From the IMG/VR virus record IMGVR_UViG_3300037196_000317, positions 1 to 22,484 of that record: a stretch of 22,484 nt of DNA, one strand, 5' to 3'. The position numbers and the translations under genes were made by a program. The stretch comes from a virus. The number at the start of each line of letters is the position of its first letter. Positions within the stretch are counted from its first letter, which is position 1. The notes under the pieces are model-generated. The model was not told the origin of the DNA and did no database searches. It saw nothing but the letters and a program-made list of their open reading frames with translations. This document shows positions 4,209 through 22,157 of this stretch, piece by piece.

Positions 4209-4762
4209 TAGTGTGTAACTTTTGTGTCCTCAAGATCGGACGCATGGGTATCTTGTAATTGTTGATCGCTCCAGGAAGCTGTTGCTGCTTTTAAAGCTGC
4301 ACCACCATCATTCGGTACTGGTGTCCATGCAGTAAAATCCTGCTTTAGAGTATTGATATCATCTTCAATTTTATTCAACCTGTCTGCAGTATTCTTTGAA
4401 ATCACCATTCCTCCATTCCGACCACCATTGAATTCTACCTTTGAATTATCGATCGCAATTGTGATATCATCGATAGAAAGCTTCACGGTTTCAATTATCG
4501 ATACCATGGCCATATAGAGTTCATCCGAGCCCCCGATCCTGGAAACAAGTACAAAGCTGTTGGCTGCAGGTGTTATAATCAATCCTTTTCCTCCGTCCAC
4601 CGTTGCACGTTTGCGTACATTATTATATGCTGTTCCCACCAGGTCTTCCACATCGATAAAATCATCATCCGGATGATTGTCGCTGACCGTTGCAATGAAC
4701 GATGAATGCGGCTCTTCCGAGAGTTGCTTCAGTCCTCTTATTATTTTTTCATTGTCCGTCAT
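4208..4762 (-). CDS. Baseplate assembly/spike protein (Mu gp45, gpV-like)
   Basis: The 184-residue product is the membrane-piercing spike. Residues 20-85 hold the OB-fold region (SSFIATVSDNHPDDDFIDVEDLVG, then GLIITPAANSFVLVSRIGGSDELYMAMV), followed by short repeated beta strands (LSIDDITIAIDNSKVEFNGG) that should form the triple-stranded beta-helix. A predicted coiled coil follows (TADRLNKIEDDINTLKQDF), then WTPVPNDGGAALKAATASW and a C-terminal DLEDTKVTH. This C-terminal layout is characteristic of spikes in Bacteroidota Mu-like phages as I recall them. The position directly after the hub gene is as in Mu (gp44-gp45). It overlaps the hub gene by four bases. No lysozyme domain is present. Confidence 0.8.
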   Translation of the reverse strand: MTDNEKIIRGLKQLSEEPHSSFIATVSDNHPDDDFIDVEDLVGTAYNNVRKRATVDGGKGLIITPAANSFVLVSRIGGSDELYMAMVSIIETVKLSIDDITIAIDNSKVEFNGGRNGGMVISKNTADRLNKIEDDINTLKQDFTAWTPVPNDGGAALKAATASWSDQQLQDTHASDLEDTKVTH

Positions 4763-15230: not shown

Positions 15231-16280
15231 TTAATCTTCATCCATCGAAAGGTCTACCTTACCCTCTTTGATTAAATTTGCCTTGTGCGCGTTTAAAAGG
15301 GCCTGATATTTATCCGGGGTTTCCTTCTTCATCTTCATGAGGCCCTCGAGGTCTTTTTTGTAATAGTCCAGGTAGTTCCATTTTGATGCATCTTTTGCAT
15401 CTTCCTGATTTTTGGCATCATTCTGGGCGGCTGCAGCCATCTGCATATCAATGACCTTTTTCCCGGGTCTTGCTTCCAGCATTGCCTTTGTGCCATCATA
15501 ATCCAGGGTAGCCACCTTTTCCATTTGAATCTTTTCCGTTGCCGGAATGACTCCGCGTTCAAAATGAAGTTCAATGAGGGTCTTTGCCTTTTCCATTGTC
15601 TCATTTTTAGGCTCTTCTTTCTTTCTGGCATCCAGCACCCTCTTGGCACCTTCATAATCCATTTGAGCAGATTTCTCAAAGAACTCGCGCTCGCTTTCGG
15701 CAACTACTCCACGGTTTACATGAAGGGAAACAAGTTCCTTTGCCATTGTTTGATGCAGAACATCCAGTTCTCCCTGGAGTTGTTCAACGGTCTTTTCAGG
15801 TTTTGACATTGTTGATTGATTTTGGTTTACATTGATTAATGATAGCTGAACTTCTTTGCCTTCCCTTATCAGTTTCACGGCATTGGTATGACCGGGAACG
15901 TTGCAAAACGAGATCTCAAGTAAATCGCTCTCCATTACAGTAGGGTACTTCTGGCCAGGTAACAAGTCTTTAGGGTTGTCAGACTCTTTGAGCGGATCTA
16001 CGCTCATAGATACTGCGTTCATGTACCCATTTTTGTACTTGTTATAAATTGCCTTTGCAACTTCATCTGCCTCGTCAAATTCTGCAATGCCTTTAAAATC
16101 ACCGTTACCTTCCTTCGTGAGGTTTTTCCATTTACCTACTGAAAGAATGGAACCGTTGTGAGAAACAAGCGCAACAGGGTTCCTGACAAAGTTGTCAGTC
16201 TTGATCCCTTCGGTAAGAATGCGGAATCCAAACCGGTTTAAAGTGTTGTCGCTTATTTTGAAAGGGAGTTCCAGTGCCAT
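15231..16280 (-). CDS. Prohead protease-scaffold fusion
   Basis: This 349-residue protein combines a head-maturation protease with a scaffold. Residues 1-150 fit the caudovirus prohead protease fold: RNPVALVSHNGSILSVGKW holds the candidate His41, NGYMNAVSMSV the candidate nucleophile (Ser91 or Ser93), and ESDLLEISFCNVPGHTNA a further conserved strand. From about 158 the sequence becomes a Glu/Lys/Ala-rich helical scaffold. Two 35-residue repeats (185-219 and 237-271), sharing LHxxRGV and DYxGxKxxLxAR, resemble the C-terminal motif of Mu protein I. The scaffold end (DASKWNYLDYYKKDLEGLMKM...) is where the shell binds. An in-frame ATG at codon 158 could start a separate scaffold, as in Mu I/Z, but it lacks a visible ribosome site. 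It is the first gene after the leftward promoter. Confidence 0.85.
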   Translation of the reverse strand: MALELPFKISDNTLNRFGFRILTEGIKTDNFVRNPVALVSHNGSILSVGKWKNLTKEGNGDFKGIAEFDEADEVAKAIYNKYKNGYMNAVSMSVDPLKESDNPKDLLPGQKYPTVMESDLLEISFCNVPGHTNAVKLIREGKEVQLSLINVNQNQSTMSKPEKTVEQLQGELDVLHQTMAKELVSLHVNRGVVAESEREFFEKSAQMDYEGAKRVLDARKKEEPKNETMEKAKTLIELHFERGVIPATEKIQMEKVATLDYDGTKAMLEARPGKKVIDMQMAAAAQNDAKNQEDAKDASKWNYLDYYKKDLEGLMKMKKETPDKYQALLNAHKANLIKEGKVDLSMDED

Positions 16281-16300
16281 CGCTTTGGTTAAAAAGAAGA

Positions 16301-16332
16301 CAAATATTCATTATTCGCTCCATAGCTGCAAA
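16301..16332 (-). promoter_or_regulatory. Bacteroidota-type promoter of the leftward late operon
   Basis: On the minus strand, TTTG (16332-16329) is followed after exactly 20 bases by AATATTTG (16308-16301). The Bacteroidota consensus is TTTG, 19-21 bases, TAnnTTTG, so the -7 box differs at one position. The predicted start of transcription is near 16295, leaving a leader of about 15 bases before the protease gene's ATG at 16280. It mirrors the rightward promoter exactly in spacing and box sequence. Confidence 0.65.
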
Positions 16333-16336
16333 TTGA

Positions 16337-16395
16337 CAATCCGTCATTGCATGAATTTCGTCCGTCATTGCATGAATTTCGTCCATGACGGATTG
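16337..16395. repeat. Divergent operator: inverted repeat with two 21-bp direct repeats
   Basis: Between the two -33 boxes lie a perfect 11-bp inverted repeat, CAATCCGTCAT (16337-16347) and ATGACGGATTG (16385-16395), and two identical, adjacent 21-bp direct repeats at 16341-16361 and 16362-16382, each beginning CCGTCAT. This gives three half-sites (two rightward, one leftward). Each end of the block is four bases from a TTTG -33 box, the place for a class II activator. A phage late-gene activator is the likely ligand, but none is encoded in this window. Confidence 0.7.
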
Positions 16396-16399
16396 ATGT

Positions 16400-16431
16400 T
16401 TTGTTTAATAACCTTTGATATCCAATATTTG
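16400..16431 (+). promoter_or_regulatory. Bacteroidota-type promoter of the rightward packaging operon
   Basis: TTTG (16400-16403), 20 bases, then AATATTTG (16424-16431) match the Bacteroidota promoter form with one mismatch in the -7 box. Transcription would begin near 16438, so the first usable start codon is the GTG at 16445, with almost no leader, or the ATG at 16481. A TTG at 16415 lies inside the promoter and is therefore an unlikely start. Confidence 0.6.
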
Positions 16432-16444
16432 TAAGAAAAATAAG

Positions 16445-16927
16445 GTGTCGAAATTCTCCCGCGAACAGCAACATCAGAAGATGCTTTCAGCAAAAGACCT
16501 TTATACTAAAGGTTTTGACTTGAGCATCATTGCCGATCTTATATCGGTCAGTCGTCTTACATTAAGCAAATGGGCAAAGGAAAATGATTTTGAAGGGGCA
16601 AAAAAGGCCAATATCATAGCATTATCTGCCATACGAAGCATCATCCTTCAAAGCTTCGCTGATGTATGCGAAGGAAAGACCCCGAAGATCTCCCCCGATA
16701 AAGCTGCAAAGTATGCTGCAGCCTTTGAGAAGCTCTCAGATAAGCGTAAAACACTCACCTTTATGTACGAGGCCTTTGAACTTCTTACATCAGATTATAT
16801 CAAAGACCTGGAGAAAGCAGTATCCAAGGAAGATAAAGACACATCCCTGGAAAACATCAAGGTGTTACGCGATCATATGGATAAGGTTGTCACCCGGCTC
16901 ACAAATGAAGTCCTGAACGATGAATAA
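16445..16927 (+). CDS. Terminase small subunit
   Basis: The product carries an N-terminal helix-turn-helix region (SAKDLYTKGFDLSIIADLISVSRLTLSKWAKENDF) like the small terminase proteins of Mu-like phages, which bind phage DNA ends. The rest is helical, rich in Lys and Glu, and suited to oligomer formation. I use the GTG at 16445 because upstream starts fall within the promoter; the ATG at 16481 would shorten the protein before the HTH. It overlaps the large terminase gene by 8 bases (16920-16927). The gene is first in the packaging operon. Its low similarity to well-known families means the assignment rests on the HTH and on gene order. Confidence 0.7.
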   Translation: MSKFSREQQHQKMLSAKDLYTKGFDLSIIADLISVSRLTLSKWAKENDFEGAKKANIIALSAIRSIILQSFADVCEGKTPKISPDKAAKYAAAFEKLSDKRKTLTFMYEAFELLTSDYIKDLEKAVSKEDKDTSLENIKVLRDHMDKVVTRLTNEVLNDE

Positions 16928-17696
16928 GAAAGAGCTTCAGCAGGCACGGGATTTATTCAAGGAGAATAGCGCCTTTATTAGAAGGTCAACCATAGAGAGT
17001 ATAATCGGGGAGAGCGAAGCTGCCAGAGAAAAAAGGATTGAACATCTTTTAAAGCCTGAAAATTATAAAGAGTTTTTTGATTATTACCTTGGCAAAGATA
17101 CTCCCATCCCCATGGCCGACTCCCCATGTGCCTGGTACCATCTTGAAACCTATAAAGAGCTTTATCGCAAACCATTCATTACACAGTTCCGTTTGGTCTT
17201 CAGAGGAGGAGCAAAGAGCATACATTCCGATGTTGGCAATCCTTTGGCTTTAAAACAATCAGGTATATTAAAATTCTTCCTGGTGATCGGTGCAAACGAA
17301 CTCCGTGCGAAGATGCTCCTGGCCGACCTTCAGGTACAACTTGAAAGTAACCAACGCATCATAAAAGACTTCGGATCACAAATAAGTTATGGCAATTGGG
17401 CTGATGGCATGTTTGAAACATCTGACCGCAGCTATTTTATGGCACTTGGTATAGAGCAGCCATTCCGGGGGCTTCGCCACTATGCCAACCGTATCGGGAT
17501 GGCAGTAGTAGATGATGTAGAAGATCGTAAAATTGCATTAAACCCAACCCTGGTTGAAGAAAGAGGGAATAAAATCACGGGTGATCTTGCCGGGGCCTTT
17601 GCCAAGGACTCAGGCAGGCTTGTCATTGCCAATAACCATATCACAAAAACCGGCATCGTAAATTACCTTTTAAAGAAGAAAGGATTTGAGTTATGA
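16920..17696 (+). CDS. Terminase large subunit, ATPase half
   Basis: This 258-residue protein powers DNA packaging. It has a variant Walker A (RGGAKS, residues 95-100), an IGMAVVDDVED Walker B segment with Asp198/Asp199 and a nearby Glu, and a coupling motif IANNH (236-240). The N-terminal region, including CAWYHLETYKELY before the P-loop, fits large terminases of Mu-like phages. It ends at KKKGFEL just after the ATPase domain, with no nuclease domain. The nuclease is encoded by the next gene, whose ATG overlaps this stop as ATGA. The usual single-chain TerL is about 500 residues, so the two genes together equal one normal enzyme. Confidence 0.85.
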   Translation: MNKKELQQARDLFKENSAFIRRSTIESIIGESEAAREKRIEHLLKPENYKEFFDYYLGKDTPIPMADSPCAWYHLETYKELYRKPFITQFRLVFRGGAKSIHSDVGNPLALKQSGILKFFLVIGANELRAKMLLADLQVQLESNQRIIKDFGSQISYGNWADGMFETSDRSYFMALGIEQPFRGLRHYANRIGMAVVDDVEDRKIALNPTLVEERGNKITGDLAGAFAKDSGRLVIANNHITKTGIVNYLLKKKGFEL

Positions 17697-18490
17697 TCCT
17701 TCGCAAGGAATTCTCTTCGGTTTACCTGGTAAATCTCACGGATGAAAATGGAAGGCCAGAGTGGCCAGAACGTTATAGCCTGGCAGATATCAAGCGTATC
17801 CATACTGAAAACGATCCTTTTACCCTTAAACGAGAGTATTACAACACACCGGTTGAAGAAGGGAAGATCTTTAAAGCCGAATGGCTTGTCTTTAGAAAAG
17901 CTAAAAAGCTTTCAGAATATCCATTACTGCTTGGCCATTGGGATCTCTCTTATAAAAAAGAGGGGGACTTCAAGGCCATGGCCCTGCTTGGCTTTGATGC
18001 CAAAGGGCTGATTGTTCTTGATATCTTTTGCCGTAAATGCGATATCGCCGATGCGGTAACTTATCATTATAACCTTCTGAGGCGTTTACGCTCTGAAGCA
18101 GCCATGCCGATTTTCCTTTATGATGCTACCGCAGCCCAGGAAGATGTATTCCGTCCGGTATTTGAACAGGAATCCATCCGGCAGAAGATCTACGAACTGC
18201 CGATGCCAGACCGAACTGCCACGGTTGATAAATACCTTCGCATCGAGGCGACTCTTACAAATGTTTTTTTTAACAAATCAATCGCATTTGCTGATCATCT
18301 CAAAGGAACTCCCGATTATAAGGCAGGAGAAGAACAGATCCTGGGCTTTGAAAAAGGATCACATATGCATGATGATTTCCCGGATACATTGGAGGCAGCA
18401 GTAAGATTGATAAATAAATATGCCTGGTCGGATACCAATGAACAAACTTTTAAACCACGGATAGTTAAACGCAAAAGGGGAGGATTTTAA
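17693..18490 (+). CDS. Terminase large subunit, nuclease half
   Basis: This 265-residue protein is the RNase H-like nuclease that cuts DNA during packaging. Residues 1-30 (SSVYLVNLTDENGRPEWPERYSLADI) match the linker that normally joins ATPase to nuclease. The catalytic acids are probably Asp84 (GHWDLSYKKEGDFKA), Asp144 (LYDATAAQEDVF) and Asp227/Asp228 (SHMHDDFPDTLEAA). It has its own AAAGGA ribosome site about 8 bases before its ATG, and the ATGA overlap couples it to the ATPase gene. The C-terminus is basic (KPRIVKRKRGGF). It is in the -1 frame relative to the ATPase gene, so a sequencing error there would also explain the split; the ribosome site argues against that. Confidence 0.85.
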   Translation: MILRKEFSSVYLVNLTDENGRPEWPERYSLADIKRIHTENDPFTLKREYYNTPVEEGKIFKAEWLVFRKAKKLSEYPLLLGHWDLSYKKEGDFKAMALLGFDAKGLIVLDIFCRKCDIADAVTYHYNLLRRLRSEAAMPIFLYDATAAQEDVFRPVFEQESIRQKIYELPMPDRTATVDKYLRIEATLTNVFFNKSIAFADHLKGTPDYKAGEEQILGFEKGSHMHDDFPDTLEAAVRLINKYAWSDTNEQTFKPRIVKRKRGGF

Positions 18491-18747: not shown

Positions 18748-19156
18748 ATTGAAAACGGTTGCCGATAAAGCCATCATCGTGCTGATAACCGATATGGATG
18801 AAGAGATAGTCGACCAGGTAATTGCCGAAAGTATCGATCTTATGTCAAGCTATCTCTCCCGGTATTATGATGTACAAAACATCTTCAATAAACAAGGTGC
18901 TGCACGTAATCTAACGGTATTGAAATATCTCAAAGATATTGTCATCTACGAGGTCTATATGCGCCATACCCGACAGATCAATGAAGCAGCCCAGAAACGC
19001 TATAACGAGGCAATGAACTTCCTGGAGAAGCTCAATACCGGAGATTTCTTCATCAGTACGCTTCCTTCAATCCCCGGAGAAATAACCTCGCCAAATAACC
19101 AGGAAGAACAGCAAACCCGCTTTGGAAGTAATTCACCTTATCAAACAATGTATTAA
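18728..19156 (+). CDS. Head completion/adaptor protein, Mu gp36-like (DUF1320)
   Basis: The 142-residue product starts at ATG 18728 (MFLSQNELKTVADKAIIVLITDMDEEIVDQVIAESIDLMSSYLSRYYDV) and has the acidic helix (MDEEIVDQVIAESIDLMSSYLS) followed by a Y-D-V segment typical of DUF1320 head-tail connector proteins. A longer frame from 18614 lies mostly inside the previous gene and lacks features. The middle (NLTVLKYLKDIVIYEVYMRHTRQINEAAQKRYNEAMNFLEKLN) is the conserved helical part. It overlaps the previous gene by 20 bases and ends one base before the portal ATG. Mu gp36 is placed after the capsid, so the location beside the portal here is a rearranged order. Confidence 0.75.
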   Translation: MFLSQNELKTVADKAIIVLITDMDEEIVDQVIAESIDLMSSYLSRYYDVQNIFNKQGAARNLTVLKYLKDIVIYEVYMRHTRQINEAAQKRYNEAMNFLEKLNTGDFFISTLPSIPGEITSPNNQEEQQTRFGSNSPYQTMY

Positions 19157-19157
19157 A

Positions 19158-20435
19158 ATGGATAACCCCGTAAAAAAATACCTGGATAAGTTCCTGGATC
19201 GTCGTATCGCCTTAAAAATGTCACCTGGTAAAACCCCTCCCATACCTATCGATGATCCGTTAAAGAAAGATCCCACTTCCTTTGTGATGGATTGGTTCAA
19301 GGTCTTTGAGCAGCTTTACCGCCATGAACTCAATGACTGGAATGAAGCACGCGCAGCGCGCCGATCTCCCATCAATCCTTATACCTGGCAATTGCAGCAG
19401 CTCTACAAGGATGCCATGGTCGACAATATCCTCTCGAGCCAGATCCGCTCCCGCATTCTTCGCATCACCAATAAATCAATGTTGCTTAAGAATGCCGGTG
19501 GTGAGATTGATGTTGAACGCAGCCTTTTTATCCAGGCAAAATGGTTTCGCAAGATCATGCGCCAGGCTCTTGAGTCGAGGTTCTTTGGTTATAGCCTGGT
19601 ATATATCAACGATTGGGAAAATGGAAAGATAAAAGATGTGAAGATCATCCCGCGCGAGCATGTGATCCCGGAGCGGGATCTGTTTCTTCGCAATGTCAAT
19701 AATTACTTTGATGGGTTGCATATTTCTGATTTTCCGAACTTCCTTATCTATATGCAGCTTGGGGATGATGCTGTCGGGATGCTTGAAAACATTGCTCCTT
19801 TGACAATTTTAAAACGACATAGCTGGGCATCCTGGGATGAGTTTGAACAAATCTTCGGAATCCCTCTTCGCGTTGCGAAGACTGCCAATTATACCGAGAA
19901 GAACCTTAATGAACTTGAAACCATGCTTCAGGGTATGGGATCAGCGGCTTATGCCATCCTTCATAATACCGATGAGCTTGACATTAAGCAAAACAACCAG
20001 ACGGATGCCTATGGGGTATTCAATGAAAAGCGCAAGGCTATCAATGAGGAGATCTGTATAGCGATCAATGGCCAGTCCATGACCTCCATCCAGGGATCGT
20101 CCCGGAGCCAGGCAGAAGTTCACGAACGCACCCAGGAGGAGATCACCGACGATGATATCATCGATATCGAGGATTGGTTCAACTCAGGTTTCATTGATGT
20201 TATGCGTAATCTTGGGTACGATATCCCTTCAGGTTATTATCTCAATATTACCGCCAACACTGAAATGGAGATTCAGGACCGTGCCAAGGTTGATTTGATG
20301 GTCTCTCAAATGGGTTTACAGTTGGATATAGATTATATTCAGGAAACATACAATGTCATCCTGGATAAAGCAAACCCGCGCAAAACACCATCAGCTCCGG
20401 GAGAACCACCCAACTCTTTAAGTTTTTTCGTCTAA
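19158..20435 (+). CDS. Portal protein (DUF935, Mu gp29-like)
   Basis: This protein, about 425 residues from ATG 19158, forms the ring through which DNA enters. A frame from TTG 19122 overlaps the upstream gene and is rejected. RRSPINPYTWQLQQLYKDAMVDNILSSQIRSRILRITNKSM and the VIPREHVIPERDLFLRN-like stretch, plus LKRHSWASWDEFEQIFGIPLRVAKTANYTE and QSMTSIQGSSRSQAEVHERTQEEIT, are strong matches to DUF935 portals. The C-terminal part (EEITDDDIIDIEDWFNSGFIDVMRNLGYDI) is helical. It ends NSLSFFV. The last codons contain T_TTT_TTC (20423-20429); a -1 shift there would fuse the product to the MuF frame. Conventional 425-residue termination is the main expectation. Confidence 0.9.
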   Translation: MDNPVKKYLDKFLDRRIALKMSPGKTPPIPIDDPLKKDPTSFVMDWFKVFEQLYRHELNDWNEARAARRSPINPYTWQLQQLYKDAMVDNILSSQIRSRILRITNKSMLLKNAGGEIDVERSLFIQAKWFRKIMRQALESRFFGYSLVYINDWENGKIKDVKIIPREHVIPERDLFLRNVNNYFDGLHISDFPNFLIYMQLGDDAVGMLENIAPLTILKRHSWASWDEFEQIFGIPLRVAKTANYTEKNLNELETMLQGMGSAAYAILHNTDELDIKQNNQTDAYGVFNEKRKAINEEICIAINGQSMTSIQGSSRSQAEVHERTQEEITDDDIIDIEDWFNSGFIDVMRNLGYDIPSGYYLNITANTEMEIQDRAKVDLMVSQMGLQLDIDYIQETYNVILDKANPRKTPSAPGEPPNSLSFFV

Positions 20436-20563: not shown

Positions 20564-21742
20564 ATGGCCATTGGAAATCGCAGGAGCATAATTGATAATG
20601 CCCTCAATGATATCCATAGTGGCAAGAGCTCCCCGATCAATGCTGATCTTTTCAACCTTTATCATAAAAACTATGTAAAAGGAATTGACCAGGTGTTTAC
20701 AAAAGCTAAAGAGGGAAGTAAAGCCTGGGAAAAAGTCCGTCAGTTCAAACTGAATACGGCAAAACTTGCTGCAGCTAAGTCTTATAAACAAACTGCCGAG
20801 CTTCAAAAGTTGGCTGCTAATTCCGCTTCCCTTGCTGAATTCAAAAAGAATGCTGCTGGCATTATTAATCGCTATAACCGCTATCAGGCTGCCGAGTATA
20901 ATACGATCGTTGCACGTACACGTACGGCAGCTCAATTTGAAAGGTTTGAGGATGAGAGCAATGACTACCCAAACCTCGAATGGCTGCTTACAGTATCTGC
21001 TGATCCCAGGGAACTGCATCTGTCTTATGTGGGGATCATCCTTCCAATAGATGATCCTTTTTGGGAAGAAAACCAACCTGGAGATCTCTGGAACTGTAAA
21101 TGTGACTGGCGCACTACTGATAAAGAACCTACATCTCTTCCGGATAAGGTAGTCAGGCCTTCACGGGGACTGGAAGGAAACCCCTGGAAGACAGGAGAGC
21201 TTATTACTGAGCAGCATCCTTATTTTAAAGGAATACCAGGCTGGGTAAGCAACAATGCAATGCTGCTGATGCCTGATGACCTTGCCTTTATCAAGGTAGA
21301 AACCAAAGAAGGAACGCTCCTGGAACATGTTCTTATGGATGGTACGGAAGAATCTCCCGATAATAGAAGTATCGCAAAATCATTGCTTAAAGATGATTTT
21401 AAGGAGATAAAACTCTTGCCAAAGATATATGCTTCTGAAGTTGCACTTCGCGAAAGGTATTATGGAGAAAAATACAATGAAGAATTTCCTTCCACTACGC
21501 CTGATGCTAAAGTGGATGGAAAGATAATTGAATTTAAAAGAGGCAATATCAATACGCTAAGCATGCGTATTGGTGAAGGGGCAAAACAATCCGATATGGT
21601 GGTTATCAAATCAAAGGATAAATTAACTAAAGGTTATTTGAAAGAATTTATAGAAGGACAATGGCAAATTGAAAATAGAAATAACCTGAATACTATTATC
21701 ATAATAAATGGAGGAAAGACTTATGTTTTCAAAAGACCATAA
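20564..21742 (+). CDS. MuF head protein with C-terminal CdiA-like nuclease toxin domain
   Basis: From the first ATG (20564) the protein has 392 residues. Residues of about 80-185 are the MuF domain (FKKNAAGIINRYNRYQAAEYNTIVARTRTA, ending in the metal-binding-like W-N-C178-K-C180-D-W). From about 260 it carries a nuclease domain: PDAKVDGKIIEFKR (Asp314/Asp318, E323-x-K325) followed by an Ile-rich strand and AKQSDMVVI, a PD-(D/E)xK pattern like CdiA C-terminal tRNase toxins. MuF-toxin fusions are known polymorphic toxins of temperate phages, but the enzymatic target here is inferred. The toxin part looks more AT-rich than the MuF part. The frame is open upstream to 20369 with no ATG, GTG or TTG between 20369 and 20564, so the true start is uncertain: an ATT at 20453 has TGGAG before it, and frameshift from portal is possible. 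No immunity gene follows. Confidence 0.85.
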   Translation: MAIGNRRSIIDNALNDIHSGKSSPINADLFNLYHKNYVKGIDQVFTKAKEGSKAWEKVRQFKLNTAKLAAAKSYKQTAELQKLAANSASLAEFKKNAAGIINRYNRYQAAEYNTIVARTRTAAQFERFEDESNDYPNLEWLLTVSADPRELHLSYVGIILPIDDPFWEENQPGDLWNCKCDWRTTDKEPTSLPDKVVRPSRGLEGNPWKTGELITEQHPYFKGIPGWVSNNAMLLMPDDLAFIKVETKEGTLLEHVLMDGTEESPDNRSIAKSLLKDDFKEIKLLPKIYASEVALRERYYGEKYNEEFPSTTPDAKVDGKIIEFKRGNINTLSMRIGEGAKQSDMVVIKSKDKLTKGYLKEFIEGQWQIENRNNLNTIIIINGGKTYVFKRP

Positions 21743-21799
21743 AAAGTGATCAAGGCCCGCGACGATGGATTTACAGTCCACCACTGAATCCCTGATCAC
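21741..21799 (-). terminator. Terminator-like stem with U5 and an anticodon-arm-like hairpin
   Basis: On the minus strand GTGATCAGGG (21799-21790) pairs with CCTTGATCAC (21755-21746) over 10 bp, with one G-U, followed by UUUUU (21745-21741). Inside, GGTGGA and TCCATC pair around the 7-base loop CTGTAAA (21776-21770), the loop sequence of tRNA-Tyr anticodon arms. On the plus strand the same pairs would be A-C mismatches, so the RNA is from the minus strand. Its T-run overlaps the toxin gene's TAA stop. It probably ends transcription from the repeat array. Confidence 0.6.
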
Positions 21800-21808
21800 C
21801 TTAATAAA

Positions 21809-21873
21809 CCAAGGGGAAACAATAACTTTCATTATCATCTCCCCCTGGGGTCGTCCGAGCACGCAGCCCCGAC
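21809..21873 (-). ncRNA. Two-hairpin RNA element, copy 1
   Basis: On the minus strand, hairpin 1 (GTCGGGGC-TGCGT-GCTCGGAC, 21873-21853) is followed after four bases by hairpin 2 (21848-21809), an 18-bp stem with loop GAAA. All 18 pairs of hairpin 2 form, five of them G-U wobbles. The -7 box TATATTTG (21885-21878) lies a few bases upstream, but there is no second conserved upstream region, as the copy 2 hairpin is immediately adjacent. This copy may be fed by read-through from copy 2. No coding function is seen. Confidence 0.65.
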
Positions 21874-21877
21874 AATG

Positions 21878-21885
21878 CAAATATA
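21878..21885 (-). promoter_or_regulatory. Perfect TAnnTTTG -7 box, copy 1
   Basis: TATATTTG on the minus strand (plus CAAATATA). It is a perfect match to the Bacteroidota -7 consensus and lies 4-5 bases before hairpin 1, so RNA would start at the hairpin. A matching -33 box is not obvious. Confidence 0.5.
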
Positions 21886-21902
21886 CAACTAATTAAAATG
21901 AA

Positions 21903-21968
21903 CTAAGGGGAAATAATAACTTTCATCATCATTTCCCCTTAGGGTTTGCCCAAGCACGCAGCTCAGAC
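21903..21968 (-). ncRNA. Two-hairpin RNA element, copy 2
   Basis: Hairpin 1 (GTCTGAGC-TGCGT-GCTTGGGC, 21968-21948) differs from copies 1 and 3 at four arm positions, yet every pair still forms as Watson-Crick or G-U. Hairpin 2 (21942-21903) has 18 pairs, three G-U, with loop GAAA. The stem's second pair is U-A here and C-G in copy 1, a compensatory change. Five bases separate the two hairpins. It is followed by U-rich sequence and then by copy 1. Confidence 0.65.
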
Positions 21969-21972
21969 AATG

Positions 21973-22005
21973 CAAATATACAACACTTTTTTAGGAATTC
22001 AACAA
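21973..22005 (-). promoter_or_regulatory. Promoter of copy 2
   Basis: TATATTTG (21980-21973) with a TTG at 22005-22003, 22 bases upstream, longer than the usual 19-21. The whole upstream 35 or so bases are shared with copy 3. Confidence 0.45.
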
Positions 22006-22056
22006 TTTAATGAAAATATTAAGATGAGCCACGAATCCTTATTTCCTTAAATAACT

Positions 22057-22120
22057 CAAGGGGAAACAATAACTTACGTTATTACCTCCCCTTGGGATCG
22101 TCCGAGCACGCAGCCCCGAC
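22057..22120 (-). ncRNA. Two-hairpin RNA element, copy 3
   Basis: Hairpin 1 (22120-22100) is identical to copy 1 and hairpin 2 (22094-22057) has 17 pairs, three of them G-U, around loop GTAA, again a GNRA loop. A 37-base stretch covering hairpin 1 and the promoter box is identical to copy 1. It is the promoter-proximal copy for leftward transcription. Sequence between copies 3 and 2 (22020-22056) shows no further structure by eye. Confidence 0.65.
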
Positions 22121-22124
22121 AATG

Positions 22125-22157
22125 CAAATATACAACACTTTTTAAGGAATTTAACAA
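22125..22157 (-). promoter_or_regulatory. Promoter of copy 3
   Basis: TATATTTG (22132-22125) and a TTG at 22157-22155. The surrounding bases (22133-22171) match those of copy 2 with few differences, so a functional upstream region has been kept in both. Transcription would begin near hairpin 1. Confidence 0.45.

Follow-up and report, generated by a model that had tools for sequence, protein, structure and literature searches.

Opposed late gene blocks and the gap between them

The window, which here means the whole 22,484-base viral contig that was analysed, belongs to a Mu-like phage of Bacteroidota, and the domains Portal_Mu, Phage_Mu_Gp36, and Phage_Mu_F were found in it. Two opposed late gene blocks are separated by a gap of 164 bases, and the predicted switch sits inside this gap. 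To the left of 16280 the genes run leftward and comprise a protease followed by presumed capsid, lysis, and tail genes, while to the right of 16445 the genes for the small terminase, large terminase, gp36, portal, and MuF run rightward. The early region is absent from the window record, and the phage's own regulator is outside view. The genes that flank the gap, together with the main members of the rightward operon, are as follows.

15231..16280, minus strand: head maturation protease/scaffold-like protein, first leftward late gene (phrog_3894, E 1.7e-8; weak TIGR01543)
16445..16927, plus strand: small terminase subunit-like DNA-binding protein, first rightward late gene (phrog_4151, phrog_7344; alignment)
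16920..17696, plus strand: terminase large subunit, N-terminal half, rightward operon (phrog_38, E 1.5e-11; 58% to residues 1-258 of intact TerL)
17693..18490, plus strand: terminase large subunit, C-terminal (nuclease) half (phrog_38, E 1.3e-25; 34% to residues 268-545 of intact TerL)
19122..20435, plus strand: portal protein, rightward operon (PF06074, E 5e-61)

Homologues of the head maturation protease-like protein in L005 and L065 are 51% identical to it. The mechanical ORF of the small terminase starts at TTG 16415, between the -33 and -7 boxes of the rightward promoter described below, and overlaps the plus-strand -7 box; by its homologues, the real start is GTG 16445. The annotated start of the small terminase of Elizabethkingia phage TCUEAP3 (L128 17223) falls inside the operator, and the real start is probably downstream. 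The large terminase (TerL) consists of two ORFs (258 and 265-266 aa) with an ATGA overlap in three phages that are about 50% identical (window 16920-18490; L090 693-2263; L065 3070-4643, minus strand), unlike the TerL of G002, which is a single 545-aa ORF.

The predicted promoters and the repeats between them occupy most of the gap.

16301..16308, minus strand: -7 box AATATTTG of the leftward (protease-capsid-tail) predicted late promoter (pattern match; L007 has an identical box)
16329..16332, minus strand: -33 box TTTG of the leftward predicted promoter (pattern match)
16337..16347, no strand assigned: left arm CAATCCGTCAT of the perfect inverted repeat, outer element at about -21 from the dyad (repeat search; palindromy P = 0.0045)
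16340..16360, plus strand: 21-bp direct repeat, copy 1 (repeat search)
16361..16381, plus strand: 21-bp direct repeat, copy 2; its TCCGTCAT (16361-16368) forms the central element, close to the dyad position 16366 (repeat search; lag-21 repeats also in relatives)
16385..16395, no strand assigned: right arm ATGACGGATTG of the perfect inverted repeat, outer element at about +21 from the dyad (repeat search)
16400..16403, plus strand: -33 box TTTG of the rightward predicted promoter (pattern match)
16424..16431, plus strand: -7 box AATATTTG of the rightward (packaging) predicted late promoter (pattern match)

A preliminary description of this DNA had noted TTTG-N20-AATATTTG on both strands of the gap. 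Across all 22,484 bases there are just these two exact matches, one per strand (16332-16301, minus, and 16400-16431, plus) and both in the gap, where 0.02 would be expected, and none of 100 shuffles contained two. The sigma-ABfr promoter consensus of Bacteroidota combines TTTG at -33 with TAnnTTTG at -7 (PMC7366714), the two boxes being some 20 bp apart. On both strands of the gap the TTTG at -33 is perfect, the N20 spacing is exact, and the -7 box has five of the six fixed bases of TAnnTTTG (the first T is missing), for a match at 9/10 consensus positions. The L065 counterpart of the leftward -7 box is CATATTTG. The stretch from 16301 to 16431 is predicted to be a pair of divergent host-sigma promoters of the sigma-ABfr type and, given the 9/10 match, an activator is not demanded by the promoter sequence. 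Since the start codon follows the -7 box by 14 nt in the window and by 4 nt in L020, the transcripts would be nearly leaderless.

The two -33 boxes are 67 bp apart, and the repeats reported between them in the preliminary description were recovered exactly. An inverted repeat with perfect 11-bp arms stops 4 bp short of either TTTG (16333-16336 and 16396-16399), and two identical 21-bp direct repeats stand in tandem. All three of the proposed half-sites are present (TCCGTCAT at 16340 and 16361, ATGACGGA at 16385), with the middle one oriented such that it breaks the mirror symmetry, an asymmetry that had also been pointed out as one that may make the two directions unequally strong. The dyad of the inverted repeat, at 16366, is the midpoint of the two promoters, about which palindromy in the window is above that of shuffles (P = 0.0045). 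Other copies of TCCGTCAT in the window are found at 4755 and 11118 only, in or at the edge of genes. A search of viral contigs with TCCGTCATTGCATGAATTTCG returned a single other match, in a 99% relative, so no wider family was found through the element sequence. There was no Rfam match in the window.

Recurrence of the geometry in related phages

Protein searches located the divergent small-terminase/protease junction in IMG/VR contigs (35% to 51% identity), in the Bacteroidales MAG L065, in two other Bacteroidota chromosomes (G141 and G106), and in the annotated transposable phages hankyphage jmh43, Elizabethkingia TCUEAP3, and P. gingivalis phage006a, these annotated phages having similar intergenic lengths. 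In hankyphage (Bacteroides phage p00/jmh43) the intergenic region is 163 bp long and the promoter distance is 117 bp. The Winoviridae relatives FPSV-S1 and lotta8-2, as well as L027-L033, are without the divergent layout and were left out. Conservation in related phages, which had been suggested as a check on the original observation, was confirmed: the geometry and the repeats recur at the same gene order in relatives whose small terminases share 35% to 51% identity or show no relationship that could be detected. Between families the intergenic DNA is unalignable, but its plan is constant. Recurrence in such distant phages supports the earlier proposal that the junction of the packaging and capsid-tail genes carries divergent promoters with an operator built in between them.

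Promoter distance was measured between the first bases of the two -7 boxes in 18 representative regions. It is 116-118 bp in 14 of these, 95 bp in three, and 74 bp in one, with manual selection of the -7 pair from tied or weak candidates in L118-L120, part of the L010-L031 group, and TCUEAP3. These classes differ by steps of 21 bp, equal to two helical turns, and the window, at 116 bp, falls in the first of them. When the best promoter pair was picked blindly in 18 divergent terminase/protease intergenic regions, 15 fell in the 115-118, 95, or 74 bp classes, compared with 0.43 on average, and never more than 2, for shuffled regions (200 sets).

The spacers show the same period. Direct-repeat autocorrelation has a z of 9.9 at lag 21 and 3.5 at lag 22, and no other lag from 8 to 33 stands out. 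Palindromy about the promoter midpoint, combined over the 18 regions, has a Fisher P of about 1e-18, with a tolerance of +-1 bp applied to data and shuffles alike (the 117-bp regions had missed the exact midpoint by 0.5 bp). Taken individually, it is not significant in L112, L119, and G106, and the palindrome is weaker in hankyphage (P 0.035), where the element sequence is different. The repeat centre is exactly the promoter midpoint also in L009, L013, L015, L122, L124, and TCUEAP3.

In the 116-118 bp spacers, three elements are located at about -21, 0, and +21 from the dyad. These are TCCGTCAT, TCCGTCAT, and ATGACGGA in the window, TATGATACC twice and its inverse in TCUEAP3, AACCATT twice and its inverse in L122 and L126, and ATAGTTG, CAACTAC, and CAACTAT in L015. 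L020, a member of the 95-bp class, has two palindromes at -10.5 and +10.5. These positions put the outermost element at about the same distance from the -33 box (13 bp by the model) in all three classes. The window shares the repeat pattern of the group, having both an exact 21-bp tandem repeat and a perfect 11-bp inverted repeat on the dyad. The CCGTCAT half-sites of the preliminary description are present in the window phage but are specific to it, and other families have their own element sequence. Within the L010-L031 group, conservation is 0.89 in the elements versus 0.83 in the rest of the spacer.

Two tandem copies that are 100% identical could be the product of a recent local duplication without function, lying between ordinary divergent host-type promoters. 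L065 is consistent with such an origin, having both promoters at the same distance as in the window but no inverted repeat that could be detected (P = 0.94). However, repeats at lag 21 and palindromy about the dyad occur in many spacers that cannot be aligned, and the spacing is quantised. The comparative data largely refute a duplication of this kind, and we give it hardly any credence.

The repeat in the window also folds well as a single strand (z -5.5), and the block is in the middle part of complete relatives, with the junction at 17.1 of 42.8, 17.2 of 33.0, and 17.1 of 35.2 kb. Both properties would suit a block that were mainly a DNA-structural or replication element, such as a packaging site, a hairpin, or a central gyrase site like the SGS of Mu (which lies between genes G and I), placed by chance between the promoters. 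Such an element would, however, have no need for base-exact centring on the promoter dyad or for 21-bp steps with promoter spacing. Further, the inverted repeat is upstream of both starts and would therefore not be transcribed, and hankyphage packaging proceeds from the left end (PMC12135933). A mainly structural role is very unlikely on this evidence.

A predicted bidirectional late promoter

We interpret 16301-16431 as a bidirectional late promoter of a transposable Bacteroidota phage, at which a phage-encoded protein would bind the spacer elements and activate both operons. Judged from sequence comparison, the probability of this reading is roughly two in three. Two host-sigma promoters would fire outward, the left one into the protease, capsid, lysis, and tail genes and the right one into the terminase, portal, and MuF genes. 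The 67-bp spacer would serve as the operator, and its three elements (at about -21, 0, and +21) would be occupied, on one helical face, by a DNA-binding protein that the phage produces ahead of the late phase. Because the outer elements are just upstream of each -33 box, the bound protein could contact RNA polymerase on both sides, and all particle genes would be turned on together. Since the elements are two helical turns apart, the gain or loss of a 21-bp unit would keep both promoters in phase with the bound protein; relatives of the 95 bp class would have two elements and those of the 74 bp class one.

In every member of the set the elements are confined to the space separating the -33 boxes and leave the -33/-7 cores free, a geometry that suggests an activator rather than a repressor. 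A repressor is nevertheless an alternative that deserves discussion. The elements may be operators of a repressor, either a CI-like/S24 repressor of lysogeny or one that acts late, under which the two strong late promoters would be shut off in the prophage and fire once it leaves. Promoters this near to consensus would suit such control, and silencing of the CI-like repressor of hankyphage raises the expression of most phage genes (PMC12135933). On the other hand, one would normally expect a repressor to cover the core promoter, and the elements in G002 are absent from the repressor/early control region, whose repeats differ. In transposable phages such as Mu, lysogenic repression is placed at the early promoter. 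Repression at these elements is unlikely in our view, and control by an activator is likely, acting on a two-way late promoter with a phased operator that appears real and conserved. It is probably one viral protein that switches on every particle-building gene together. The promoter pair, the repeats, the coincidence of the dyads, the quantised spacing, and the conservation come directly from the computation. We infer that a protein binds, that it activates rather than represses, when it does so, and what kind of protein it is.

The logic alone of this arrangement resembles late control in P2 and Mu, and membership in either class is not claimed. In P2, the late promoters PP and PO are divergent. 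Ogr activates both, PP driving PQ and PO driving ONMLKRS, and in the P2-like phage Smp131 they are on opposite strands at one shared TGT-N12-ACA site (PMC3931495). The likeness consists of divergent late promoters between packaging/portal and protease-capsid genes, together with (putative) activator sites through which a single (putative) activator serves both directions. Two further late promoters exist in P2, whereas the window-type elements repeat at 21 bp and the full element is found at this promoter alone within the genomes of the phages checked. The Ogr site TGT-N12-ACA is absent from the stretch that separates the two start codons in the window, and a search of ORFs in the regions covered in relatives found no Ogr-type CX2CX22CX4C motif.

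The Mu activators Mor and C have their binding sites at the -35 region or upstream of it (PMC4390567, PMC4461284). Mu is likewise a transposable phage, with inverted-repeat activator sites at or just upstream of the region corresponding to -35/-33. However, a single 16-bp Mor element centred at -43.5 replaces the -35 box of Mu Pm, whereas the -33 boxes of the window are intact, with a perfect TTTG 4 bp from the repeat on both strands. Four separate promoters (lys, I, P, and mom) respond to C, in contrast to one shared two-way promoter in the window. The window-type promoters also differ from those of Mu in having up to three phased elements, and no confident Mor/C homologue was found.

A broader generalization is tentative, and we hold it as possible rather than probable. 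The operator may be modular and helically quantised, with one to three two-turn units of a fast-evolving element placed between opposed RNA polymerases and bound by an unnamed, probably small, family of phage activators that co-evolves with the element. It would then be the sole late switch of a group of transposable Bacteroidota phages that includes hankyphage. In the literature searched, which left most subscription journals outside, there was no description of late promoters or late gene control for transposable Bacteroidota phages, hankyphage included. Hankyphage is widespread in the gut, and its lytic cycle stalls in the laboratory from a cause that is unexplained. A conserved two-way promoter with readable geometry provides a specific place to seek the late activator, as well as a DNA bait, and the quantised 21-bp spacing is a clean natural experiment on the helical phasing of an activator relative to two polymerases.

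Candidate regulators and elements beyond the MuF gene

The records of seven relatives encode a 61-79 aa HTH protein in the early operon, after MuA and MuB. Its similarity to Mor/C was below threshold in all comparisons (Pfam Mor, E 0.024; phrog_532/836, E about 0.01, with phrog_532 at E 0.0097), including hhalign against Mu Mor/C (P 0.0017, probability 15%, below the cut-off), and a search of relatives for Mor (PF08765) gave sub-threshold matches only. In a fold search with a model of the small HTH, Mor (1rr7) scored Z 5.5, below the DNA-binding domain of Mu transposase at 7.2, and all matches were at Z <8. No copy of the gene turned up in hankyphage, TCUEAP3, or the P. gingivalis phage. These similarities are only suggestive and make the small Mor-like HTH a lead for the regulator, not an identification.

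A GemA-like identity of the gene preceding the small HTH was unsupported by profile comparison against Mu GemA, and the argument that GemA is followed by Mor, as in Mu, was dropped as evidence. Covariation of the recognition helix with the element was also considered; an S-A-I helix goes with CAACTA and an S-T-I helix with AATGATTA, an agreement that is confounded by ancestry. The last early gene of hankyphage, the P. gingivalis phage, G141, and G106 belongs to phrog_17154 (the 'RYYYW' protein), which has no similarity to Mor and no known function; in hankyphage, TCUEAP3, and the P. gingivalis phage it is a candidate regulator by position only. The early regions of several relatives also contain retroelement reverse transcriptase-like ORFs, identified by eye (L090 9748-10698; L075 3650-4636; L076 9606-10619), as in hankyphage.

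At the other end of the rightward operon, the MuF head protein is fused to a CdiA C-terminal toxin-like domain (window 20564-21742; PF04233 and PF18451), and the C-terminal end of this fusion differs in the near-identical phage L155. Downstream of MuF, on the minus strand at 21745-22150, a unit occurs three times in tandem, at distances of 95 and 152 bp. It consists of promoter-like TTGTATATTTG and, after it, an RNA with strong folding (z about -5), and had no match in Rfam. L155 has one copy of this unit, and G002 has a similar element in the same place. The terminal hairpin (window 21745-21800, minus strand) precedes a T-run and carries GGACTGTAAATCC, which resembles the anticodon arm of tRNA-Tyr, and the equivalent hairpin of the L007 phage (L090 5505-5580, minus strand) carries GGATTGCAAATCC, like tRNA-Cys. 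As the hairpin adjoins a MuF gene with a CdiA_C domain, it is conceivable that its RNA is a tRNA mimic.
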